This document shows positions 12,272 through 26,046 of a stretch of 64,000 nt of DNA, piece after piece (the stretch's first letter is position 1; each line of letters opens with the position of its first letter). A model generated the notes under the pieces. That model was not told the origin of the DNA and ran no database searches. It saw only the letters and a program-made list of their open reading frames with translations. Source of the DNA: Candidatus Nitrosotenuis cloacae. Its GTDB lineage: Archaea; Thermoproteota; Nitrososphaeria; Nitrososphaerales; Nitrosopumilaceae. The DNA lies in NCBI RefSeq assembly GCF_026768455.1, contig NZ_JAPPVQ010000007.1, positions 1 to 64,000 of the forward strand, read 5' to 3'. The translations under genes were made by a program, and so were the position numbers.

Positions 12272-13564
12272 CTAGGAGTCTTCTGCGCACCTAAAGCCGG
12301 AAAACATCCATCGCTCATCCAGCCTGAAGAAGTTTCTGTAACTGCCGCGAATCGAGTTTTGCGGAGTTGCAAATGATCCTCCACGCAGCACCTTCTGGTT
12401 TGTAAACCACTTGTCATTGTATTCTGAAAATCCCGACCTGAATCCGGGGTATCCTACAAATTCTGATGACGTCCATTCCCACACGTCTCCTATCATCTGA
12501 TGGCATCCGTAGTGGCTTGTACCGTTTGGATATGATCCTATCTTACTGCATCCCCACAGGCGTGATTCAAGCAAGTTTGCATGACTCTCAGTCGGCACGT
12601 CGTTTCCCCACGGGAATATTGTCTTGACCTGCTTTTCCTCGTTCCAGCATGCGGCCTTTTCCCACTCTGCCTCAGATGGGAGGCGCCTTCCTGTCCACTT
12701 GCAGTATGCGTCCGCCTCGTAAAAGCTCACATGGCACACGGGCTCATTTGGGTCTACTTTGCGGCGTCCAAGAAAGTCATTTACATGCCACGCGCCGTTT
12801 TCCCAGTACCAGTACATTGGGGCTTTCCATTTGTTTTTGCTCACTGCATCCCATCCGTCTGAGAGCCAGTGCTTGTAATCCTCATATCCGCCCGACTCGA
12901 TGAACTTGATGTAGTCCCCTGCGCTTACCGGGAATGCGTCTATTTTGTAATCATTAAGATACACCTTGTGTTCTGGCATCTCTATGTCGTAGCAGAATCC
13001 TTTTCCCGAATAGCCCATGCTGTAGATGCCTCCATCGACTGCAACCTGTCTTTGCTTTACTGATGCGGCCTCTGGAACGGGCTTTCGTATTTTCGGCTTG
13101 TAGTTTTCTGCCAGAATGTGCTGAATGTCGTACACTAGAAGCTCCTGGTGCTGGCACTCGTGGTGGATTCCAATCTCTATGATTTTTCTTGTAGATTCGT
13201 CCAAGCGCCCTGCCTCAAGGAGTCTTGTCATTTTATCTGTGATTTTCCCGTAATACGTGAGCAACTCGTCTGTGGTGGGCCGTGACACCGAACCCCTACT
13301 TGCCTTGTCGTGCTGGTCTCCGAACTTGTTATAGTACGAGTTGAGGTATTTTGAAAACTCTTGGTCGTCTGCCTTGTAGTTTCGGTCCACCTGTTCCAAT
13401 AATCTCTCAAAGAGCCAGCTTGTGTGGCCCAAGTGCCACTTTGGCGGACTCACGTACGGTGCAGTCTGCACGGTGTAGTCGTCCTTTTCGAGCGGCTCTA
13501 CTATCTCAAGCGTGGTTGCCCGCAGTCTTTTGAACTCGTCTGCTATTGAATAAGTTGAAAGCAC
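12272..13564 (-). CDS. egtB: EgtB-type sulfoxide synthase (ergothioneine synthesis)
   Basis: A 430-residue protein with the EgtB architecture: an N-terminal DinB-like four-helix domain and a C-terminal FGE-sulfatase (C-type-lectin-like) domain. The iron-binding HX3HXE motif is visible as H135-x3-H139-x-E141 (HECQHQE), with a further His in WHLGHTSW near residue 47. The C-terminal half shows VCHVSFYEADAYCKWTGRRLPSEAEWEKAA and ends in FSGFRCAEDS, both standard. EgtB oxidatively joins a thiol (gamma-Glu-Cys or Cys) to trimethyl-histidine; the thiol donor here is not predictable by eye. The start is GTG 13564. It is divergent from egtD. Confidence 0.9.
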   Translation of the reverse strand: MLSTYSIADEFKRLRATTLEIVEPLEKDDYTVQTAPYVSPPKWHLGHTSWLFERLLEQVDRNYKADDQEFSKYLNSYYNKFGDQHDKASRGSVSRPTTDELLTYYGKITDKMTRLLEAGRLDESTRKIIEIGIHHECQHQELLVYDIQHILAENYKPKIRKPVPEAASVKQRQVAVDGGIYSMGYSGKGFCYDIEMPEHKVYLNDYKIDAFPVSAGDYIKFIESGGYEDYKHWLSDGWDAVSKNKWKAPMYWYWENGAWHVNDFLGRRKVDPNEPVCHVSFYEADAYCKWTGRRLPSEAEWEKAACWNEEKQVKTIFPWGNDVPTESHANLLESRLWGCSKIGSYPNGTSHYGCHQMIGDVWEWTSSEFVGYPGFRSGFSEYNDKWFTNQKVLRGGSFATPQNSIRGSYRNFFRLDERWMFSGFRCAEDS

Positions 13565-13674: not shown

Positions 13675-14691
13675 ATGAATGAGAAAAGTAAAAACAAGTA
13701 CATCAAAGTCGAAGTCGCCCCAAATTGCTTTCTTGTAAAATCGCATGCGGCAATAGACGATGATTTTGCAGAAGACATTGCGTACGGGCTTACTAGAAAA
13801 AACAAATTCGTATCATCAAGGCACTTTTACGACAAGTCCGGCTCTGAATTATTTGATAAGATATGCGCCCTGCCGGAGTATTACCTGACAAAAAAAGAGA
13901 CGGAGATTCTATCTGTGCTAAAAGAGGATCTTCCAGAATACCTGGACGGCAATTATTCTGTAGTGGATCTTGGCAGCGGTTCTGCGACAAAGACAAGGTA
14001 CATCTTTGATGCGCTGTCGTCAAGGCAGGAGAAGATAGAGTATTATCCGATTGACATATCTGATGTGATAAAGGAGAGCAGTGAAAGACTGCAAAGCGAA
14101 TTTGAGAACCTGTACATAACTGGAATTGTAGACAGGTACGAGAGCGGGCTTGACTATCTGAAAAATCTTGCAGGAAAAAAGATAATTGTCTTTTTTGGCT
14201 CAAGCATCGGCAACTTTGACCAAAAGGCAGCACTTGACTTCCTAAGGAGGATACATTCGTCTATGAATGATGGAGATCTCTTCCTTCTTGGAGTTGACCT
14301 AGTCAAGGACAAACGAGTGCTGGAATCTGCGTACAATGACTCTAGGGGAGTCACTGCCAAGTTCAACTTGAACCTGCTGTACAGAATCAACGAGGTACTC
14401 GGCGGCGACTTTGAGGCTGGCAAGTTTGAGCATGTTGCATTTTACAACTCCAAGGAAAAGAGAATCGAGATGCACCTGGAGTCAAAGGAGGACCAGCAAG
14501 TGCTCATCAGGGAGATCGACCTTGCAATGAGTCTCAAAAAAGGAGAGCGCATCCGCACCGAATACTCTTACAAGTACACCATCCCGCAGATCAGGCGGGC
14601 TGCAAAAAGGACTGGGTTTTCCATCATGGGAATGTGGACTGACAAGCAGGACTATTTTGCATCCGTGCTACTGTCAAAGGAGAAGAAATGA
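13675..14691 (+). CDS. egtD: L-histidine N-alpha-methyltransferase EgtD
   Basis: A 338-residue DUF2260-type methyltransferase. The SAM motif VVDLGSGSATKTRYI lies at about residues 99-113 and the family signature FFGSSIGNFDQ at about 180-190; SRHFYDKSGSELFDKICALPEYY near the N-terminus is also typical. EgtD trimethylates histidine to hercynine, the first step of ergothioneine synthesis, and the EgtB needed next is encoded divergently. Length is normal. EgtA, EgtC and EgtE are not in the window. The downstream DUF427 gene overlaps it by 4 bases. Confidence 0.93.
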   Translation: MNEKSKNKYIKVEVAPNCFLVKSHAAIDDDFAEDIAYGLTRKNKFVSSRHFYDKSGSELFDKICALPEYYLTKKETEILSVLKEDLPEYLDGNYSVVDLGSGSATKTRYIFDALSSRQEKIEYYPIDISDVIKESSERLQSEFENLYITGIVDRYESGLDYLKNLAGKKIIVFFGSSIGNFDQKAALDFLRRIHSSMNDGDLFLLGVDLVKDKRVLESAYNDSRGVTAKFNLNLLYRINEVLGGDFEAGKFEHVAFYNSKEKRIEMHLESKEDQQVLIREIDLAMSLKKGERIRTEYSYKYTIPQIRRAAKRTGFSIMGMWTDKQDYFASVLLSKEKK

Positions 14692-15786: not shown

Positions 15787-16821
15787 TCACATCTCGGGTT
15801 CTATTCCCTTTGCGATTCGCAGCGCATCCACCAGGCCGTCCGCATACCCTATGCTAAGTATTGCAAGCTCGTCCTTTCCCTGCTCAAAGAACCTTTCTGC
15901 GTCTCTGATGTACAGCTCTGCGTTCTCCAAGACGCTTGCAAACTCTTTTGTGTCCTTGTAGTGCGGGGCAATCTGCTCAAGAGCACGTCTGACCATTGGA
16001 ACGTATTTTTTCATCATCTGTGCGGATATCTTTTGTATCTTTGACGTGTTGTCTTCTGGCGCATCGACGCATCTTGCAAACGCCTTGAGCGCGTCCGATT
16101 CCGTAAAATGCATCGTGCCCGGAATGATTATGGTGTGCGGCGCTTCTCCAAAGTCCTCGTTTAACATGCTGCCTATATTTCCCGCCGTTATGCTCTGATT
16201 GGGAAATCCTATTCTTGACGCAACTATTGCATACGTGGAATCTGAGATCGCCTTTCTTGCCTGCTCTTTTTCTGCCGCAAGCAGGCTCTCAAACGCCGCT
16301 ACTGGTTCCAGAAAAAAGCTCTTGTTCTGGTTGTATTCTAGGAGGACGACGGTGTGGTTTCCAAGCTTTAGGTTCTCAAATATGGTATAGTATGCCGTGG
16401 TGGAAGGTATGGTGCTCATTATGGTCACCGTCTTTCCCACCTTGTAGTAGTGGAGGCCGCACTCGCCAATCAGCGACGTGAGTGCAGATGATGCATGTAT
16501 TGTGTCCGTCTTGATGCCCTGCTGGATCGCCCTGACTCGCAGCTCGATGTGGGTCGTTGCAATGTATGGGTCCCCATATGACAGCAGGACCGTGTTTTTT
16601 TCCTTTGCCGTCTCTAGTATCTCGCGTCCGTCCTCTACAAGCCAGCGGGGGCCTAGCTTGAACTCGCCGCGTACTAGTTCTCGTATTTTTTGCGTCTCCG
16701 CATCAGTTATTGGACTTGTGAACTGCTCAAGATACACCACATCTGACTCTGAGACTATCTTTTGCGCTCTAGCTGAGAGCGAATCCGGACCAGTTATTCC
16801 AAGACCTATGAACCAGAGCAT
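15787..16821 (-). CDS. dphB: Diphthine synthase fused to a DUF357 domain
   Basis: A 344-residue protein. Residues 1-250 are the SAM-dependent tetrapyrrole-methylase fold of DphB: MLWFIGLGITGPDSLSARA, LLSYGDPYIATTHIELR and SSALTSLIGECGLHYYKVG are diagnostic. DphB methylates the modified His of elongation factor 2 during diphthamide synthesis. Normal DphB has about 260 residues; the extra C-terminal 85 or so (ISAQMMKKYVPMVRRAL to the end) resemble DUF357, a small archaeal helical domain. The frame is open upstream to 16980, but ATG 16821 overlaps the LysK stop by one base (TAATG) and begins the family sequence. Confidence 0.9.
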   Translation of the reverse strand: MLWFIGLGITGPDSLSARAQKIVSESDVVYLEQFTSPITDAETQKIRELVRGEFKLGPRWLVEDGREILETAKEKNTVLLSYGDPYIATTHIELRVRAIQQGIKTDTIHASSALTSLIGECGLHYYKVGKTVTIMSTIPSTTAYYTIFENLKLGNHTVVLLEYNQNKSFFLEPVAAFESLLAAEKEQARKAISDSTYAIVASRIGFPNQSITAGNIGSMLNEDFGEAPHTIIIPGTMHFTESDALKAFARCVDAPEDNTSKIQKISAQMMKKYVPMVRRALEQIAPHYKDTKEFASVLENAELYIRDAERFFEQGKDELAILSIGYADGLVDALRIAKGIEPEM

Positions 16822-17951
16822 TACTTGCTCTTCTTGGAGTCGTCCAGTCTCTTCAAGTGGTGCAGGGTGTTCTTTATGACCTCGATTCCTCGCAAAAACT
16901 CTGATATCGAGACCCGCTCGTCCATCGTGTGAGACGCGTGCGGATCGCCAGGACCGTACGTTACAACTGGGATGTTCCATAATGTGCCAATTACGTTCAT
17001 GTCACCAGTACCTGTCTTCCGGATGAGTGCCGGTCTTGTGTGCTCTACGTCCATCACTCCAAGTGTGAATGCGCGAACAAGCGGTGAGTCCATCGGGGCC
17101 TCAAACGGCTCCGTCTCGTCTATTACAGAATACATTGCCTCGATTCCCTCCCTGTTTGCAAGCTCTGTCACCTTTGTCGCAATCTTTTCACCGACCATCT
17201 TTACGTTCATCGTGACCGGGATTCGAATGTCCATTGTGGTGGTACATTCTTTTGGAGTGACGTTGTGGCTATCGCCTCCCTTTACCTCAGTTATGGTGCA
17301 TGTGAGCATCATTCCCTTTGACTTACCCTCCTGGTTTGACTCTAGGTGGTTTTTGAGCTCCATTGTGAATTTCATGGATTCTTCGATTGCGTTTCTTGCA
17401 AGCCATGGTGCAGACGCGTGGGCCGAGTCTCCCACGTTTACCTTTAGGTTGATTGCAATTCTCCCCTTGTATGCGATTGTAACGTTCCTGATGCCGCTTG
17501 GCTCGCCAAACACCGCATAGTCGACGTCGAGCTTTTGCTTTGTGAGATTTTTAATTCCGGTCGCGTTTCCCTCCTCGTCGACTGCGCCAACAAAGATTAT
17601 CGTCCCGTTGTTCTTCTGAAGTGTGGCAGCTGCTAGCAGCATTGCAATTAGCGGTGCCTTTGCGTCGGACGCGCCGCGTCCGTACAAAAAGTCGCCCTCC
17701 TTGCGTACCTTTACCTTTCCTGGAACTGTATCCATATGTCCGCACAGCAGGACCCGGGGCGTGCCTGAGCCAATCTGGGCAATGAGGTTTCCTACCTCGT
17801 CGGTGCGTATATTCTCAAATCCCAAGTCGTCGCACTTGTCTGCCAGGTATTCTGCCATCGGTTTTTCTGAAAGTGACGGCGTGTACAGTCGCAGTGCCTT
17901 TTCTAGCATCTTTACTGAGAACCTTGGGGTAATTGTAAATGACGAGTCCAT
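16821..17951 (-). CDS. lysK: LysW-lysine/ornithine hydrolase (M20 peptidase)
   Basis: A 376-residue M20-family metallopeptidase. Zinc-site motifs CGHMDTVPG, GRGASDAKAP, VDEEGNATG and FGEPSG are visible in order. In LysW pathways this enzyme releases lysine (and in bifunctional systems ornithine) from the carrier protein. The gene directly follows the ATP-grasp ligase and LysW genes, which supports this over an ordinary acetylornithine or succinyl-diaminopimelate deacylase. It is the only such deacylase in the locus, so it probably serves both branches. Confidence 0.9.
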   Translation of the reverse strand: MDSSFTITPRFSVKMLEKALRLYTPSLSEKPMAEYLADKCDDLGFENIRTDEVGNLIAQIGSGTPRVLLCGHMDTVPGKVKVRKEGDFLYGRGASDAKAPLIAMLLAAATLQKNNGTIIFVGAVDEEGNATGIKNLTKQKLDVDYAVFGEPSGIRNVTIAYKGRIAINLKVNVGDSAHASAPWLARNAIEESMKFTMELKNHLESNQEGKSKGMMLTCTITEVKGGDSHNVTPKECTTTMDIRIPVTMNVKMVGEKIATKVTELANREGIEAMYSVIDETEPFEAPMDSPLVRAFTLGVMDVEHTRPALIRKTGTGDMNVIGTLWNIPVVTYGPGDPHASHTMDERVSISEFLRGIEVIKNTLHHLKRLDDSKKSK

Positions 17952-17952
17952 T

Positions 17953-18798
17953 TTACTTTCCTGAATTTACTGCGTATTCTAATATTTTTCCGGCAATGTC
18001 CACACCTGTGACACGCGCGACGTTTCTGTATTCAGTGGTGTTGTTTATCTCGTGTACCACCAGTCCGCGCTCGTTGCTCTCCATTAGGTCGATTCCAACT
18101 ATCTGGCCCTTGACTGCCTTTGTAGCCTTTAGGCATATCTCCTCAAGCTCCTGCGTTACATTGCATATCTCGGCAGTTCCTCCGAGGTGCGTGTTTGTCT
18201 TCCAGTTCCCGTCGCCGGAATTCCTGTATATTGCGCCTGCCACCTCGTCTCCTATGACTATTGCGCGTATGTCGCGTGGCGGCCTCTGCACGTATTCTTC
18301 CAAATAGTGAATCTGATAAATCGGATACATCTTTTCTCGCTCCTCTATGATTCCCTCTGCTGCCTCGCGGTTGTTTAATTTGGTTACCATTCTTCCCCAG
18401 CTGCCGACGGTCGGCTTTATCACCTTTGGATACCCTATCTTGTCCAGCGCATCAAGTGCCGCGTCCTTTGAGAATGCCGTAGTCACATACGGTGTCTGCA
18501 CTCCTGCGTTTCGAAGAAGCATGTGGGTGAACAGCTTGTTTCCGGCATAGATTCCAGTGTGCAACGAGTTTATCACGTTTGCACCGACTCCCTCGAGTGC
18601 CGCAGTCGCGTGGAGATTTCTGTAATAGCTTACGCATCGCTGCAGTACTGTGCCAAACGGGGCCTTTTTGTCAAGATCTATTACGAGGTTCTTACAGTCC
18701 ACCATCTCGATTTCGATGCCCTTCTTCTTTGCAGATTCTGTTAGGGCCTTTTCTTCAAGTCGTATTGTGTCGTAGAGAACCGTTACTTGCGGGCTCAC
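17953..18798 (-). CDS. lysX: ATP-grasp ligase of the LysW pathway (probable LysX)
   Basis: A 281-residue RimK-like ATP-grasp ligase. GYPKVIKPTVGSWGRMV is the nucleotide-binding loop, and the end (GLVVHEINNTTEYRN) is the conserved substrate/metal segment. LysX joins alpha-aminoadipate to the C-terminal residue of LysW. The paralogue at 23736-24593 is similar in length and order. Position directly after a homocitrate-synthase-like gene and a LysW gene favours the aminoadipate (lysine) branch, but the substrate assignment between the two paralogues is inferred from neighbours. The GTG start shares its first base with the last base of the LysW1 Gln codon. Confidence 0.88.
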   Translation of the reverse strand: MSPQVTVLYDTIRLEEKALTESAKKKGIEIEMVDCKNLVIDLDKKAPFGTVLQRCVSYYRNLHATAALEGVGANVINSLHTGIYAGNKLFTHMLLRNAGVQTPYVTTAFSKDAALDALDKIGYPKVIKPTVGSWGRMVTKLNNREAAEGIIEEREKMYPIYQIHYLEEYVQRPPRDIRAIVIGDEVAGAIYRNSGDGNWKTNTHLGGTAEICNVTQELEEICLKATKAVKGQIVGIDLMESNERGLVVHEINNTTEYRNVARVTGVDIAGKILEYAVNSGK

Positions 18799-18962
18799 TG
18801 ACCCCAGTCCTCTCCAACGCTCTGGGCCGGTTTTAGCCCAAATCCGTCGGACGATTTTACAATCTCAAAGCTTGCTCCGCAATCAGGACACGTCACAAGT
18901 TCGCCTTCGAGGGCGTCGCTTGGAACGGATATGTCGGAGTCACATTCTGCACATTTTGCCAT
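18795..18962 (-). CDS. lysW: LysW-type amino-group carrier protein 1, ending in Gln
   Basis: A 55-residue carrier. Two CxxC zinc knuckles (CAEC and CPDC) and the acidic tail GEDWG identify LysW. In characterised LysW the last residue is Glu and its side-chain carboxylate carries the amino acid. Here the last codon is CAG (Gln), immediately before TGA; the second LysW at 24594-24761 ends in Glu as expected. The start is ATG 18962, one base after the previous gene; an upstream in-frame codon would add 9 residues without family support. Confidence 0.9.
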   Translation of the reverse strand: MAKCAECDSDISVPSDALEGELVTCPDCGASFEIVKSSDGFGLKPAQSVGEDWGQ

Positions 18963-18963
18963 G

Positions 18964-20145
18964 TTATTCCTTACTGCCCTTTGAGTCATTAATTATCTTT
19001 CTTTCAAGCTTGCTGTCTAGTGGGATCTCAAGGAGGTCGCCCATTCTGAGGTTTTTAAGCCCAAGAGCCACTGCCTTTGCCTGCTCGTCGTTCTTTTCCA
19101 GCCCCAGTATTGACATCAGGTACGCAGAGCCTGTCTTTCCTGCAAGCTCGCCAAACACTATTCTGCGCCTGTTTCCTACCACGCGCGGCGGAATCGGCTC
19201 ATATGCTGCCGGATTTCGAAGTATGGCCGCAAGGTGCGTTCCTGCCTTGTGCTTGTATGCGGTAGGTCCGACGATTGGCTTTGAGTCGTACGGCGGAATT
19301 CCTGTATATTCCTCGATTAATCTTGAAAGGTCCGTTAGCATGTCCAGTCTGAAGTCGTTTGGTGAGCGGTACAGGTAAGTCATTGCGACTGCCACCTCTG
19401 CAAGGGAGGGGATTCCGGTCCTCTCTCCGATTCCGTCTATCGTGGTGTGTATCTGCTCTGCTCCCGCATCTATTCCAGCAAATGCGTTTGCGACTGCAAA
19501 TCCCATGTCGTTGTGGCAGTGGACATCCAGTGGCACCTTGATCTTCTCGTGTATCATCTTGACAAAGTTGTACATTCCCCTCGGCCTCATGACGCCGACC
19601 GTGTCAGGCAGGCTTATCCTGTCGACTCCTGCCTCTTCGATTGCCTTGCACATCTTTAGGAGGAACTCGGGGTCGGCCCTGCTTCCATCCTCTACTGTAA
19701 ATCTCATCTTTAATCCGTGGGCCTTTGCGTACTCGACAGTCTCCACTGCACGCCGCATCGCCTCCTCACGCGTGATTCTAAGCTTGTCCTTTAGGTGAAT
19801 GTCTGAAATTCCAAGGTATGTTGCAGTCCACTTTGGGTCGCACTTTAACGCCACGTCGACGTCCTCCTTTAGTGCGCGAACGTGCGCTACGATGTCTGCC
19901 TTTAGTCCCTGCTTTATGATCGTCTTTGTTGCCTCAAAGTGGTCCTCTGATACTACGGGTGATATCTCGATCTGGTCGACTCCGAAATAGTCAAGCATCC
20001 ATGCAATCTGGATTCTCTGCTTGTTGGTAAATGTGACACCTGGGTGCTGCTCTCCCTCCCTGAGGGTGCTATCAAGCACGCGTATCTTTCGCGGCTTTTT
20101 GTCATACTCGTTCCACAGGTGCGCGTAGTAATTCGGATCACTCAT
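18964..20145 (-). CDS. Homocitrate synthase-like/2-isopropylmalate synthase family
   Basis: A 393-residue member of the HMGL/LeuA family. LDSTLREGEQHPGVTFTNKQRIQIA is the N-terminal catalytic Arg/Asp region, and HCHNDMGFAVANAFAGIDAGAEQIHTTIDGIGERTG has the metal-binding HxH and active-site elements. It is shorter than LeuA and lacks the C-terminal regulatory domain. It is the first gene of the LysW1-LysX-LysK run, so homocitrate synthase, the entry step of the aminoadipate lysine route, is the best assignment; isopropylmalate or citramalate synthase remain possible. Confidence 0.82.
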   Translation of the reverse strand: MSDPNYYAHLWNEYDKKPRKIRVLDSTLREGEQHPGVTFTNKQRIQIAWMLDYFGVDQIEISPVVSEDHFEATKTIIKQGLKADIVAHVRALKEDVDVALKCDPKWTATYLGISDIHLKDKLRITREEAMRRAVETVEYAKAHGLKMRFTVEDGSRADPEFLLKMCKAIEEAGVDRISLPDTVGVMRPRGMYNFVKMIHEKIKVPLDVHCHNDMGFAVANAFAGIDAGAEQIHTTIDGIGERTGIPSLAEVAVAMTYLYRSPNDFRLDMLTDLSRLIEEYTGIPPYDSKPIVGPTAYKHKAGTHLAAILRNPAAYEPIPPRVVGNRRRIVFGELAGKTGSAYLMSILGLEKNDEQAKAVALGLKNLRMGDLLEIPLDSKLERKIINDSKGSKE

Positions 20146-20261: not shown

Positions 20262-20681
20262 CTATACCACGTCACGCAGTATGATTACCGTGTTGGTGTC
20301 GGAGACTCCCTGCACCTTTCGCAGCTGGTCTATTGAGCCGTTTATCTCAGTGATGTTTGGCGCAGAAATTATCACCGCAATGTCGTACTGGCCTGTTATC
20401 TCGTAGACTATCTTTACGCCTTCCAGCTTTGTGAGCCTGGCGGACACCTTTGATGTGTCCATTGACGACTCTACTGATATTAGCACGATTGCCTTTGTCG
20501 AGTTTTGCTCGCCAATCTCGACTGTGAACTTCTTTATGACCTGGCCGTCTATGAGGTTCTTGACCCTGCGCCTTACTGCCGATTCTGAGAGCTTTAGCTT
20601 TTTGCCAATGTCTACAAACGACTCCCTAGAGTCCTCCTTTAGGATCTTTAGTATCTCGTCGTCAATCTTGTCCTTGTGCAT
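20262..20681 (-). CDS. Lrp/AsnC-family regulator (LysM-like by position)
   Basis: A 139-residue Lrp/AsnC protein: helix-turn-helix at residues 5-60 (LKEDSRESFVDIGKKLKLSESAVRRRVKNLIDG) followed by a RAM ligand-binding domain (IVLISVESSMDTSKVSARLTKLEGVKIVYEITGQYDIAVII). ATG 20681 overlaps the end of the aminotransferase gene by 20 bases; an earlier start would deepen the overlap. In Sulfolobus the Lrp protein LysM controls the lysine cluster in response to lysine, and this gene ends the arginine/lysine operon here, so a similar role is likely. Confidence 0.88.
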   Translation of the reverse strand: MHKDKIDDEILKILKEDSRESFVDIGKKLKLSESAVRRRVKNLIDGQVIKKFTVEIGEQNSTKAIVLISVESSMDTSKVSARLTKLEGVKIVYEITGQYDIAVIISAPNITEINGSIDQLRKVQGVSDTNTVIILRDVV

Positions 20682-21852
20682 TCTTTTTCCTCTCTGCCTC
20701 TCTAGTAAATAACTTGTCAAGTACCTCTAATACTTTGTTGACCTGCGCCTCCGTCATCACAAGTGGCGGCAGGAATCGCAGTATGTTTCTACCAGAGTAC
20801 AGCAGCAAGACCCCCTCCGATATTCCGTCAAACAAAATGTCCTTTACCTCAAACTTCATCTCGACTCCAATCATCATCCCTTTGCCCCTTACCTCGCGTA
20901 TAATGTTGTGTTTTTGCTTTAGCTTCTCCAGCCCCTCCATGAGGATCTGCCCAATTCTTGCGGCGTTTGCTATGAGGCCGTCCTGTGTAAGTGCCTGCAG
21001 CGTTGCAATTCCTGCTGCGCATGAGAGCGGGTTTCCGCCAAACGTGGACGAGTGCTCACCCTTGCTCATAGCCGCAAGTATCTCGGGCTTTACTAGCGTG
21101 GCGCTCATCGGCACGCCGCCTGCGATTCCCTTTGCAAGGCACATGATATCTGGCGCCGTGTTCCAGTGGTCGCACGCCCACATCTTGCCTGTCCTGCCAA
21201 GTCCTGCCTGAATCTCGTCAAAGATGAGGAGGATTCCGTTTTCGTCGCAGAGCTTTCTTACGTCCTGCAGGAATCCGTCTGGAGCCACATTGATTCCGCC
21301 CTCGCCCTGTATTGGCTCCATTATGATAAATGCGGTGTCCTTGTCTATCTTGGAGCGGAGCGTCTCAATGTCGCCAAACGGAGAGAACGTCGGCTTTTCC
21401 ACTAGGGGCATGAATGCCTTTCTGTATTTTGGATTGAATGTAATTGATAGTGCACCCATTGATTTTCCATGGTAGGAACCATTCATTGCTATCATGCCTG
21501 ACTTGCCGGTATACTTTCTTGCAAACTTTATCGCAGCCTCCACTGCCTCAGTCCCGCTGTTTCCAAGGTGCACGTTTGTGAGCCCCTTTGGTGCAAGCTT
21601 GATGAGGTTCTCAAGGAACTCCTCGCGGGTCTTGTTGTACAGGGATGTGTGTACTGTGATTATCTTGTCAAGCTGGTTTTTCAGCGCCGAGACGACTCGC
21701 GGGTTTCTGTGTCCGACCAGCGCCACGCCGTATCCGCCCATGCAATCGATGTACTCTTTGTTGTTGATGTCCCAGACTAGGGCCCCATCTCCTTTTTCGA
21801 TTGTGACTGGGAATCTCTGGTAGAGACTACCTAGGAAATCATCTTCTGTCAT
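20662..21852 (-). CDS. lysJ: LysW-aminoadipate semialdehyde/glutamate semialdehyde aminotransferase
   Basis: A 396-residue class III PLP aminotransferase of the ArgD/LysJ type. The PLP lysine is in CLAKGIAGGVPMSA, FDEIQAGLGRTGKMWA precedes it, and STFGGNPLSCAAG follows; all are standard. It converts the LysW-bound semialdehyde to the amine (LysW-lysine or LysW-ornithine). Only one such gene is present beside the two ligases, so a dual role is expected. It overlaps the kinase gene by 4 bases (ATGA). Confidence 0.92.
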   Translation of the reverse strand: MTEDDFLGSLYQRFPVTIEKGDGALVWDINNKEYIDCMGGYGVALVGHRNPRVVSALKNQLDKIITVHTSLYNKTREEFLENLIKLAPKGLTNVHLGNSGTEAVEAAIKFARKYTGKSGMIAMNGSYHGKSMGALSITFNPKYRKAFMPLVEKPTFSPFGDIETLRSKIDKDTAFIIMEPIQGEGGINVAPDGFLQDVRKLCDENGILLIFDEIQAGLGRTGKMWACDHWNTAPDIMCLAKGIAGGVPMSATLVKPEILAAMSKGEHSSTFGGNPLSCAAGIATLQALTQDGLIANAARIGQILMEGLEKLKQKHNIIREVRGKGMMIGVEMKFEVKDILFDGISEGVLLLYSGRNILRFLPPLVMTEAQVNKVLEVLDKLFTREAERKKNAQGQD

Positions 21853-22649
21853 TTGGAAATTACCGTGCAGTTTTGGTGAGATATTGCCGAGGATATAGGA
21901 TTTTCCCGCTGGCCATTGGCAATGAGTGCCTCCTTGACGCCCATGTCAAGTGCCTCTGTTGCGGCCAGGATCTTTTTCTCCATGCCAAAGCCGACCTTTG
22001 GTCGTATCTCCTTTGCCTCCGCGTTTGTCATGTTGTGGACCACCTTTTCGTTCATCAAAAGCCCGTCCACGTTTGTCAAAAATAGTATCTTGTCGCTTTG
22101 AATGGCACCTGCCACGTTTGCAGCCGCCCTGTCTCCGTCTATGTTCAGAAAATCAAACTCTTTGCTTATTGCAATTGGCGAGATTACCGGCGTGTACCCA
22201 TTTTCCAGGAGCATCTTGAGCAGCGCCCCGTTTACCTCCGTGACCTTTCCTGTGTATCCTCCGTCGATTACCTGCTTTCGGCCCTTTTCGTTCACTATTA
22301 CCAGCTTGTCCTTTCTTTCTGCCAGGAATATCCTTCCGTCAACTCCACTCAGGCCGATTGCGTTGATGCCGTGCTTTTGCAGCATCTGCACTATGTTCTT
22401 GTTTATCTTTCCTGACATCACCATGGTAAAGATCTCAGCAGTCTCCTTATCCGTGTATCTTGACTTGATTCCGCTTGGGGAGACTACGAACTTTGGCTCC
22501 TTTCCCATTATCTCGCAAGTTCTGGTTACCTCCTTTCCGCCCCCGTGCACCAGTATGACTCCCTCGCTTTCTGCAACTTTTTTTATGTCAGGTATGGTTG
22601 ATGGGTGAAGATTTTCTACTACGCTTCCGCCGATCTTGATTGTAATCAT
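21849..22649 (-). CDS. lysZ: LysW-aminoadipate/glutamate kinase
   Basis: A 266-residue amino-acid kinase of the ArgB/LysZ family: MITIKIGGSVVEN and VILVHGGGKEVT make the phosphate-binding N-terminus, and FLTNVDGLLMNEKVVHNMT plus FGMEKKILAATEAL the C-terminal nucleotide site. It phosphorylates the carrier-bound acid. It follows the reductase by 3 bases and overlaps the aminotransferase by 4, so all three are one translation unit. Confidence 0.92.
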   Translation of the reverse strand: MITIKIGGSVVENLHPSTIPDIKKVAESEGVILVHGGGKEVTRTCEIMGKEPKFVVSPSGIKSRYTDKETAEIFTMVMSGKINKNIVQMLQKHGINAIGLSGVDGRIFLAERKDKLVIVNEKGRKQVIDGGYTGKVTEVNGALLKMLLENGYTPVISPIAISKEFDFLNIDGDRAAANVAGAIQSDKILFLTNVDGLLMNEKVVHNMTNAEAKEIRPKVGFGMEKKILAATEALDMGVKEALIANGQRENPISSAISHQNCTVISK

Positions 22650-22652
22650 TTT

Positions 22653-23708
22653 TTAAACTGGTGTCAGCGGTGAGTATCTGAGTCCGTCCATTTCGTCAAA
22701 GCCTGCCATGATGTTCATGTTCTGAACGGCAGAGCCTGCGGCGCCCTTCATCAGGTTGTCTGATGCGGACAGTGCAACTAGTCTGTGATTGTCTTCGTCA
22801 ATGTCAAATCCGATGTCGCAGAAATTGGAGCCGACGACAAACTTGGGGTCTGGGAACTTGTAGAGGCCCTTCTTGTCTCGGATTAGTCTGATGAATCTCT
22901 CGTTCTTGTACATGTCCCTGTACACCTTCCACAGTTCCAGCTCGTTCATGTCCTTTAGGAGGAACGTGTGGTTTGTGCATAGTATGCCCCTTACGATGTC
23001 TACTGCGTGAGGGCTCATTGATACGTGAATCTTTTTTCCTGCTATCTCGCTCAGCTCCTGTTCTATCTCGCCTGTGTGTCTGTGCTTTGCAGGCTTGTAC
23101 GGCCTAATTACGCCTGAACGCATTGCGTGGTGTGTTCCTGCCACGCTTCCTGCGCCTGCACCAGATGAGCCGATTTTAGAGTCTACTACAATGTGCTCAG
23201 TGTCGATGAGATTGTTCTTGATTAGAGGTGCAAGTGCAAGCATGGATGTTACTGCCATGCATCCTGGGCATGATACCAGTTGCGCATTTTTTATCTGTTC
23301 TCTGTGGAGTTCTGGGACGCCGAATACTGACTTTGCCAGATAGTCCGGATGCGGGTGCTCCCAGCCGTACCACTTGGTGTATCCTTCCTGGTTGTGCAGT
23401 CTGTAATCTGCTGAAAGGTCCACTACTTTGAGGCCCCTGTCGTAAAGTGCCTTTACTATCTCGGTTGCAGTTCCGTGAGGTACTGCGGTAAAGACGAGAT
23501 CGCACTTGTCGGACATTTTATCATAGTCTAACTCTGAAAACGTCATCTCTGTAAATCCCTTGAGTGCCGGCTGGACTCTGTGTAGGTACTCCCCTACGTG
23601 CTGCCTTGAGGTCACCATTGCGATCTCTACTTTGGGGTGTGTTACCAAAAGACGCAACATCTCTCCGCCCACGTATCCTGATGCTCCGACTACTCCGACT
23701 CTTAACAT
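22653..23708 (-). CDS. lysY: LysW-aminoadipyl/glutamyl-phosphate reductase
   Basis: A 351-residue ArgC/LysY reductase. VGVVGASGYVGGEMLRLL is the NADP-binding loop and SCPGCMAVTSMLALAPL carries the catalytic Cys. SSGAGAGSVAGTHHA and the late HxxxxPHAVDIVRGI region match the family. It reduces the acyl phosphate to the semialdehyde on LysW. Length is normal. Confidence 0.93.
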   Translation of the reverse strand: MLRVGVVGASGYVGGEMLRLLVTHPKVEIAMVTSRQHVGEYLHRVQPALKGFTEMTFSELDYDKMSDKCDLVFTAVPHGTATEIVKALYDRGLKVVDLSADYRLHNQEGYTKWYGWEHPHPDYLAKSVFGVPELHREQIKNAQLVSCPGCMAVTSMLALAPLIKNNLIDTEHIVVDSKIGSSGAGAGSVAGTHHAMRSGVIRPYKPAKHRHTGEIEQELSEIAGKKIHVSMSPHAVDIVRGILCTNHTFLLKDMNELELWKVYRDMYKNERFIRLIRDKKGLYKFPDPKFVVGSNFCDIGFDIDEDNHRLVALSASDNLMKGAAGSAVQNMNIMAGFDEMDGLRYSPLTPV

Positions 23709-23735: not shown

Positions 23736-24593
23736 TTATTTTCTGGCATGATTTAGGGCAAATTCTATCATTTCTTGCGGGATATTCTTCTTTGCAACTC
23801 GTGCAAGTCCCTTGAACTCTACCGTATTATTCACCTCGTGTATTACGAGGCCGCGCTTTTCGTCTTCCATCAGATCGATTCCAAGTATTCCGCCGCCAAC
23901 TGCCCTTGACGCCTTGATGCAGAGGTCCTCCATCTCCTTTGTTATCTCGCAGATCTCCGGATCTCCTCCAAGCGCTATGTTTGTCTTAAAGTCCCCCTGC
24001 GACTTTCTGTACATTGCGGCAATTACGTGATCACCTACTGTTATTGCGCGTATGTCGCGTGGCGGCCTGTTTATCATTTCTTGTAAATAATAGATTCTGT
24101 CGTGCGAGCCGTCCTCTATGTCGCGCATCTCAAGGATTGCCTCTGTCGTGTCCTTGTCGCGCAGGGGCAGTATTCCGCGGCCCCAACTTCCAATTATCGG
24201 CTTTATCACTATCGGGTAGCCTAGTTTCTCAATTAGCCTCATTGCCTCCTCTGACGAGAATGCAAAATGGGTCTTTGGCGTAGGCACGCCATGTTTTTTC
24301 AAAAGTAGTGAGGTTATCATCTTGTTTCCGCACTTTTCTGCGACTGCGTGCGAGTTTACCACCGGAACGTCCATGAACTCTAGGCAGGCAGTAAAGTGCA
24401 GGCCGCGATAATAGCTGACACAGCGCTCCAAGACGACATCACCAAAATCGATGTCGGTCTTCTTGGACTCTGTGCTGAGTTGGGTTATCTTTGCGTCCTG
24501 CATTATTGTATCGTGACCCATCTTGGATGCCTGGTCCTCAAGCATTTTCTCCTCGAGTCGGAGTCTATCAAATACGATACAAACTCTGGACAA
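23736..24593 (-). CDS. argX: ATP-grasp ligase of the LysW pathway (probable ArgX)
   Basis: A 285-residue paralogue of the ligase at 17953-18798, with the same order: GYPIVIKPIIGSWGRGI, REAIRAI-type NRPPRDIRAITVGDHV and terminal GLVIHEVNNTVEFKG. In Sulfolobus, ArgX joins glutamate to LysW for ornithine and arginine synthesis. This copy sits between argG, LysW2 and lysY, so the glutamate (arginine) branch is the better guess. The start is TTG 24593, directly after the LysW2 stop. Confidence 0.87.
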   Translation of the reverse strand: MSRVCIVFDRLRLEEKMLEDQASKMGHDTIMQDAKITQLSTESKKTDIDFGDVVLERCVSYYRGLHFTACLEFMDVPVVNSHAVAEKCGNKMITSLLLKKHGVPTPKTHFAFSSEEAMRLIEKLGYPIVIKPIIGSWGRGILPLRDKDTTEAILEMRDIEDGSHDRIYYLQEMINRPPRDIRAITVGDHVIAAMYRKSQGDFKTNIALGGDPEICEITKEMEDLCIKASRAVGGGILGIDLMEDEKRGLVIHEVNNTVEFKGLARVAKKNIPQEMIEFALNHARK

Positions 24594-24761
24594 CTATTCT
24601 CCCCAGTCTTCTCCGACGCTTTCTGCTGGCTTTAGTTCTACGCTAGAGCCGTCCTTCTTTGATATCTCAAAGTCGGCGCCGCATTCTGGGCAAGATACTA
24701 TCTCGCCAACTGCTGCGTCTGCTGGGATGTTGATTGTTGCGTCACATTCTAAGCAATTCAT
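24594..24761 (-). CDS. lysW: LysW-type amino-group carrier protein 2, ending in Glu
   Basis: A 55-residue carrier with two CxxC knuckles (CLEC and CPEC), an acidic surface and the canonical EDWGE end, whose last Glu is the attachment point. ATG 24761 gives exactly the length of LysW1. GAGGTG about 12 bases upstream may serve as ribosome-binding site; an alternative GTG at 24776 would overlap the argG stop by 4 bases and add 5 residues. It is immediately followed by the argX-like gene. Confidence 0.92.
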   Translation of the reverse strand: MNCLECDATINIPADAAVGEIVSCPECGADFEISKKDGSSVELKPAESVGEDWGE

Positions 24762-24772
24762 TATGATCCTTG

Positions 24773-25960
24773 TCACCTCTTGTTTAGTAATTTATTAGCT
24801 TCTGTTGTTTGCAGTCCCCACAGCTCAACAAAGCCGGTTGCCTTTCTCTGATCAAACGCTGATCCCTTTCCGTAGGTGGCAATGTTGTGGCTGTATAGGG
24901 AGTACTTGGATTTTCGTCCAACAACTCGCAAGCTTCCCTTGTGGAGTTTTAGTCTGACCGTACCTGTGACGACCTTCTGGGACTGGTCGATGAACCTGTC
25001 CAAGTCCCGCTTTAGCGGATCCTGCCACAGTCCGGAATACGCAAGCCATGCCCATTCTTGGTCCACCATCTCCTTGAACTTGTTCTCATGCTTGGTATGC
25101 ACCATCTTTTCAAGGTCAGAATGGGCCTCTATGATGCACAGGGCGCCTGGCGTCTCGTAGACCTCGCGGGACTTGATTCCAACTACGCGGTCCTCTATGT
25201 GGTCGACTATGCCAACACCATAGGAGCCTGCTACCCTGTTTGCATACTCGATTAGTCTTATCGGTGTCATTCTCTTCTTGTCGATTGCTACTGGCACGCC
25301 GTTCTGAAACTCAATTTCCATATAGCGCGGCTTGTCTGGCAGGCCACGTGTCTTTACCCAGATGAACGCGTCGTCCGGAGGCTCTGCATATGGGTCCTCC
25401 ATGTTGCCCCCCTCTATTGCCCTGCCCCACAGGTTCTGGTCTATTGAAAATTTCTTTGATACACTGTCAATTGGTATTCCGTGTTTGTTCGCAAACTCTA
25501 GCTCAGTTGTCCTGTCAAGGTTCAGATCCCTGATTGGTGCAATTATTGGGAGGTTGGAGCCTGAGCCAAATGTTACGTCAAATCGCACTTGGTCGTTTCC
25601 CTTTCCGGTGCATCCGTGCGCAAGTGCATCGACCTTTTCCTTTTTTGCCACCTCGAGCACCTTTTGCGCAATTAGTGGTCGCGCAAGGGATGTGGCAAGG
25701 CAGTATTTTTTCTGGTAAAGCGCGTTTGCCTTTATCGCAGGATAGATGTAGTTCTCAACGAACTCTTTTCGCGCATCAAGATTGTAATGTCGCAAGACTC
25801 CAAGTTTCTTTGCCTTTGCCGCAATTTTTTTCTGGTCACTTCCCTCGCCTACGTCAACTGTTACCGTGATTACGTCCATGCGGTGTTTTTCCTGGAGATA
25901 TTTTATCACAACAGACGTGTCCAGTCCGCCGGAAAAAGCAAGCACTGCCTTTTGTTTCAT
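24773..25960 (-). CDS. argG: Argininosuccinate synthase
   Basis: A 395-residue ATP-dependent ligase joining citrulline and aspartate. The N-terminal PP-loop AFSGGLDTSVVIKYL and the later GCTGKGNDQVRFDVTF and YGVGIVDHIEDRVVG segments are diagnostic. The frame extends upstream to an ATG at 26023 that would add 21 non-family residues. Two TATA-like boxes exist: one at 25986-25994 fits ATG 25960, the other at about 26049-26058 fits ATG 26023. Family length favours 25960. It heads the arginine/lysine run; argH and argF are not in the window. Confidence 0.95.
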   Translation of the reverse strand: MKQKAVLAFSGGLDTSVVIKYLQEKHRMDVITVTVDVGEGSDQKKIAAKAKKLGVLRHYNLDARKEFVENYIYPAIKANALYQKKYCLATSLARPLIAQKVLEVAKKEKVDALAHGCTGKGNDQVRFDVTFGSGSNLPIIAPIRDLNLDRTTELEFANKHGIPIDSVSKKFSIDQNLWGRAIEGGNMEDPYAEPPDDAFIWVKTRGLPDKPRYMEIEFQNGVPVAIDKKRMTPIRLIEYANRVAGSYGVGIVDHIEDRVVGIKSREVYETPGALCIIEAHSDLEKMVHTKHENKFKEMVDQEWAWLAYSGLWQDPLKRDLDRFIDQSQKVVTGTVRLKLHKGSLRVVGRKSKYSLYSHNIATYGKGSAFDQRKATGFVELWGLQTTEANKLLNKR

Positions 25961-26046
25961 TAGAGCTTTTCCGTCATGTGTTTTGCATTTATCTTTTGTG
26001 ATGATCCAGTTTGCAATTTTCATTTTATGATTTTGGAAAATAGTTT

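Follow-up and report, generated by a model that had tools for sequence, protein, structure and literature searches.

Amino-group carriers encoded with a C-terminal glutamine in ammonia-oxidising archaea, and their proposed maturation by deamidation

In the window, i.e., the whole stretch of 64,000 nucleotides of Candidatus Nitrosotenuis cloacae that was analysed here, one copy of the lysine/arginine amino-group carrier LysW (LysW1) is encoded with Gln at the position where the LysW family has its substrate attachment site, a C-terminal Glu. As judged by comparison between genomes, such Gln carriers almost certainly work. The preferred reading, given a probability of about one half, is that LysW1 is a working carrier made as a Gln-ended precursor, and that an enzyme which the pathway already contains would convert the terminal Gln to Glu by a single hydrolysis of its side-chain amide.

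LysW1 is a Zn-ribbon protein of 55 amino acids, starting with MAKCAEC and ending with PAQSVGEDWGQ, that scores 91.2 bits against the archaeal LysW/ArgW model NF041070 (cut-off 75) and is also recognised by Pfam Zn_ribbon_LysW. The Zn-binding cysteines (C4, C7, C25, and C28) and the EDWG tail are all present, and a LysX/ArgX ligase with the GSWGR motif adjoins the carrier. Given the encoded Gln, LysW1 is filed here as a variant of the LysW family and not as an ordinary member. An earlier note on this DNA had reported the ending GEDWGQ, a second LysW in the same locus ending in GEDWGE, and a base shared between the Gln codon and the lysX start; all three were confirmed, as the last codons on the minus strand are CAG (18800-18798) and TGA (18797-18795), and the GTG start of lysX1 (18798-18796) uses the last base of the CAG. 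It had further argued that this overlap does not force Gln, which is borne out by relatives that have GAG TGA at the same junction; Gln carriers elsewhere, with CAA or CAG before TAA, TAG, or TGA, likewise rule out such forcing. The two carriers of the window also differ in Glu/Gln nine residues from the end, with PAQ in LysW1 and PAE in LysW2, and the Gln of PAQ is retained even in lineages with a terminal Glu.

lysW1 belongs to a block of eleven genes in the order argG, lysW2, lysX2, lysY, lysZ, lysJ, an Lrp regulator, a homocitrate/isopropylmalate synthase-like gene, lysW1, lysX1, and lysK (Table 1). The window genome has two LysW only, two LysX over the cut-off, and a single LysK match. 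Residues that set the substrate choice of LysX/ArgX have been reported (PMC10433800), and by these LysX1 looks like an aminoadipate ligase and LysX2 like a glutamate ligase. The synthase-like gene matches best the 2-isopropylmalate synthase subfamily, with a score below the cut-off of that model. Elsewhere in the window, EgtB (12272-13564, minus strand) and EgtD (13675-14691, plus strand), both over their NCBIfam cut-offs, form a divergent ergothioneine synthesis pair in this ammonia-oxidiser genome.

Table 1. Genes of the carrier block in the window
Feature	Position	Strand	Basis and remarks
lysK, [LysW]-lysine/ornithine hydrolase, M20 family; candidate deamidase	16821..17951	-	subfamily TIGR01902 over cut-off, equivalog PRK04443 below its cut-off
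lysX1, ATP-grasp ligase	17953..18798	-	TIGR02144 312 bits (cut-off 275.6); LysX-type signature EYRNV, GSWGR kept
lysW1, carrier ending GEDWGQ	18795..18962	-	Gln codon 18798-18800, stop 18795-18797
Homocitrate/isopropylmalate synthase-like gene (lysS position)	18964..20145	-	profile search, below all equivalog cut-offs
LysM-type Lrp regulator	20262..20720	-	NF040947 over cut-off
lysJ/argD aminotransferase	20662..21852	-	profile search
lysZ, [LysW]-aminoadipate/glutamate kinase	21849..22649	-	NF010662 over cut-off
lysY/argC reductase	22653..23708	-	profile search
lysX2 (argX)	23736..24593	-	signature EFKGL resembling ArgX, GSWGR kept
lysW2, carrier ending GEDWGE, arginine side	24594..24761	-	sequence and profile search
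argG, adjoins lysW2	24773..26023	-	gene order; name from sequence

The earlier note had suggested a check of the last residue across LysW orthologues, and this gave Gln as the usual ending among ammonia oxidisers. In the window's family of Nitrosopumilaceae-like ammonia oxidisers (f1), a DNA pattern for EDWG-Gln-stop matches 219 of the 250 genomes (126 of the 131 good genomes, and 22 of the 22 genera). Five of the 31 genomes of this family that lack it (G257, G394, G420, G441, and G433) have GAG at the lysW1 position; most of the others are incomplete, so that absence of the gene from the assembly is the plain explanation. When the last residue was left free in the pattern, 80 loci of named ammonia-oxidising archaea, including Nitrosotenuis, Nitrosopumilus, Nitrosarchaeum, and Nitrososphaera, gave 78 Gln and 2 Glu. 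Phylum-wide, EDWG-Gln-stop was found in 64 of 300 genomes and EDWG-Glu-stop in 197, a few of these matches being chance ones outside LysW. Besides the window's family, three or more unrelated families of the phylum have Gln carriers; beyond f1 and f3, the latter read as the Nitrososphaeraceae-like ammonia oxidisers, they are present in f11, f16, f34, and f37, where relatives carry Glu. Three matches were rejected, namely a Gln match in G032 (L002) and a CAT match in G465 (L109), neither of which is a LysW, and a match in G209 ending in TGG, which is no stop codon. A sequencing or assembly error, which the earlier note had raised, is refuted by the hundreds of independent genomes that share the Gln end with varied synonymous codons; nothing was found in its favour, and its probability is practically nil.

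At least 13 Glu/Gln changes fall on a LysX tree of 118 sequences, in the lysine and the arginine arms both; the tree is a quick one with several long branches, so that the deep part of this count is rough and its firm part consists of swaps within genera and between sister rows. All four combinations of LysW1/LysW2 endings (Q/E, Q/Q, E/Q, and E/E) occur. The 39 genomes of f3 include one genus with a single Gln carrier, others with two, two genera that combine a Glu carrier for lysine with a Gln carrier for arginine, and one with the window's arrangement; the both-Glu arrangement was seen in f1. The two genera with Gln on the arginine side only rule out that Gln is tied to lysine. From these sequences, the swap is frequent and without fixed direction. 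One 4.9 Mb assembly (G540; L335 and L336) holds two lys gene sets with different carrier ends, and probably represents two strains binned together.

Of about 106 carriers found with the last residue left free, a number drawn from two sets that may overlap slightly, none ended in anything but Glu or Gln. Parsimony on the LysX1-linked carriers of ammonia oxidisers gave 4 changes at the E/Q base, compared with 1, 2, 7, and 14 at synonymous sites in the last codons; these counts are small and come from a thinned sample, and are an indication that Glu and Gln may be exchanged about as fast as silent changes, with all other residues excluded. The idea of strong selection for Gln against Glu was dropped after this comparison. 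Within the window's family, the rarity of Glu in LysW1 (5 genomes, at least 2 events) could mean that Gln is favoured there, and a preference of this kind would count against deamidation.

Several genomes contain Gln-ended carriers only. The ammonia oxidiser G209, assembled as one contig, combines a single Gln-ended LysW with two LysX; G221 and G082 have two carriers each, both Gln-ended; and the single carrier is Gln-ended in G009, G041, G122, G128, G152, G017, G049, G134, and G137. In G209 (L082) and G510 (L338), no lysW2 lies between argG and the retained lysX2, which would leave the single Gln carrier to serve both ligases. From the Gln-only genomes it would follow that a Gln-encoded carrier supports both pathways, unless all of these organisms import lysine and arginine. 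The expectation of the earlier note that Gln should not accept a substrate is thus not possible as the end state. The operon of G538 (L337) lacks both lysW2 and lysX2, and retains the Gln carrier and LysX1; LysX1 may be bifunctional there, or arginine may be made otherwise. In G137, LysW lies outside any lysYZJ cluster and the LysK candidate is distant (30% identity); a carbamoyl-phosphate synthase in its neighbourhood, considered as a linked amidase, was treated as a coincidence.

The enzymes that handle the carrier appear unchanged by the swap. No column of the LysX alignment tracked it in some ten independent pairs, the best column agreeing in fewer than four. The nearest Q/E sisters (G126 and G257) differ in 14 of 284 LysX columns, none of them in the carrier-binding GSWGR or the substrate motifs. 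The catalytic H, D, E, E, and H of LysK are intact in all aligned genomes, whether Gln-only, mixed, or Glu-only, and in the window genome both carriers share the only LysK-like match. No conserved amidase was linked to Gln carriers in the operons compared, and none of 14 genomes contained a Dop/PafA homologue (PF03136).

The simplest account of this pattern would be that an activity present in every case removes the amide, and deamidation is considered the most likely hypothesis. The restriction to Glu and Gln means that the side-chain gamma-carbonyl matters, although an encoded amide is accepted. LysW1 would be synthesised as a Gln-ended precursor and its side-chain amide converted to Glu, once, by a pathway enzyme, after which the standard gamma-linkage chemistry would proceed; since LysK would release the carrier in its Glu form in each cycle, the conversion would be needed once per carrier molecule. 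Encoded Glu and Gln would then be nearly interchangeable, matching the observed swapping. The leading candidate for the converter, put forward less firmly than deamidation itself, is LysK, whose normal reaction is to hydrolyse the gamma-amide that links lysine or ornithine to the terminal Glu; Gln would present the same bond, with ammonia as the leaving part. Against this step, enzymes of the M20 family as a rule recognise the amino-acid part that they release, and ammonia has no such part; the LysK candidate of G137 is also remote. The comparative data do not distinguish among LysK, LysX, and an unlinked amidase as the converter. Of the "regulated, deamidation-activated" carrier that the earlier note had proposed, deamidation stands as the best reading, with a precedent in Pup, whereas "regulated" is unsupported, given that Glu and Gln interchange repeatedly in either arm and that neither a linked new gene nor a ligase change goes with it.

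The Gln form might instead be used without hydrolysis, through amide exchange by the ATP-grasp ligase or through joining to the main-chain carboxylate; neither reaction is known from amino-group carriers, and such use is unlikely. In the exchange, LysX with ADP and phosphate would replace the ammonia of Gln by aminoadipate or glutamate, giving the usual gamma-linked product, with later cycles running on Glu. This is a gamma-glutamyl transfer, comparable to a side reaction of glutamine synthetase; it requires no extra gene, suits both the E/Q interchange and the unchanged ligase, and fits the comparative data as well as deamidation by LysK does. However, no such reaction of LysX/ArgX has been reported in the literature surveyed, and the corresponding ligase of the Pup system, PafA, is unable to deamidate PupQ (PMC12288473); this inability of PafA is the only reason for placing this unlikely route below deamidation by LysK. 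For main-chain joining, the substrate would sit on the alpha-carboxylate of the C-terminal Gln, which is free, and LysK would act as a carboxypeptidase, with Gln restored in each cycle. The M20 family, to which LysK belongs, includes carboxypeptidases. Nevertheless, this linkage is highly doubtful, as one LysK match is common to the Q and E carriers, residues besides these two would be expected at the end (found in 0 of about 106), and the gamma-link is established in related systems, according to work cited in PMC10433800. The changed chemistry offered by the earlier note keeps some probability but is less economical than deamidation.

It is quite unlikely that conversion to Glu occurs spontaneously or through a separate housekeeping amidase encoded elsewhere in the genome. 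An unlinked amidase is conceivable, as no conserved amidase lies beside the Gln carriers, but a specific one would be needed before each of the 13 swaps and the one known carrier deamidase family, Dop/PafA, is absent from the 14 genomes; at the temperatures where marine archaea live, Gln deamidates slowly by itself. That the Gln carrier is an uncharged decoy, a regulator, or a degenerate copy, with the Glu carrier doing the work, would suit the window taken by itself, which also encodes a Glu carrier. It is contradicted by the Gln-only genomes with two ligases, unless lysine and arginine are made in another way, and the lysW1-lysX1-lysK operon pairing and the retention of all other LysW features also speak against it, making it very improbable. 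Archaea make Gln-tRNA indirectly from Glu-tRNA(Gln), and some Glu could be put in at the Gln codon during translation via the unconverted form; every Gln codon would then be affected, nothing here supports this, and it is extremely improbable.

Some of Earth's most abundant archaea apparently make lysine or arginine on a carrier without an encoded attachment residue, and annotation models name the Gln-ended proteins LysW with the difference unmarked. Neither a Gln-ended LysW nor the string EDWGQ was mentioned in the full texts searched, a body of literature to which subscription journals mostly do not belong. LysW1 shares with the LysW/ArgW system of Thermus, Sulfolobus, Thermococcus, and Natrinema the Zn-ribbon carrier, the EDWG-X C-terminus, a LysX/ArgX with GSWGR, and LysZYJK downstream, and differs from it in the encoded terminal Gln, a side chain without a carboxylate to activate. 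In a haloarchaeal carrier, ArgW of Natrinema gari, E54A abolishes arginine synthesis (PMC10433800). A close parallel is Pup with Dop/PafA in Actinobacteria, a small carrier that is encoded as PupQ or PupE depending on the species, in which Dop is both depupylase and deamidase (PMC12288473, PMC8599861). Its proteins and enzymes are unrelated to those of the LysW system, and PF03136 was found in 0 of 14 genomes. The alternation of encoded Gln and Glu between species is seen in LysW carriers as well; in Pup, Gln must become Glu, attachment is through the side-chain carboxylate, and the hydrolase also deamidates, whereas for LysW the conversion is proposed. If deamidation does not take place, carrier ligase chemistry would be broader than thought; if it does, a Pup-like maturation step would have evolved separately in primary metabolism.
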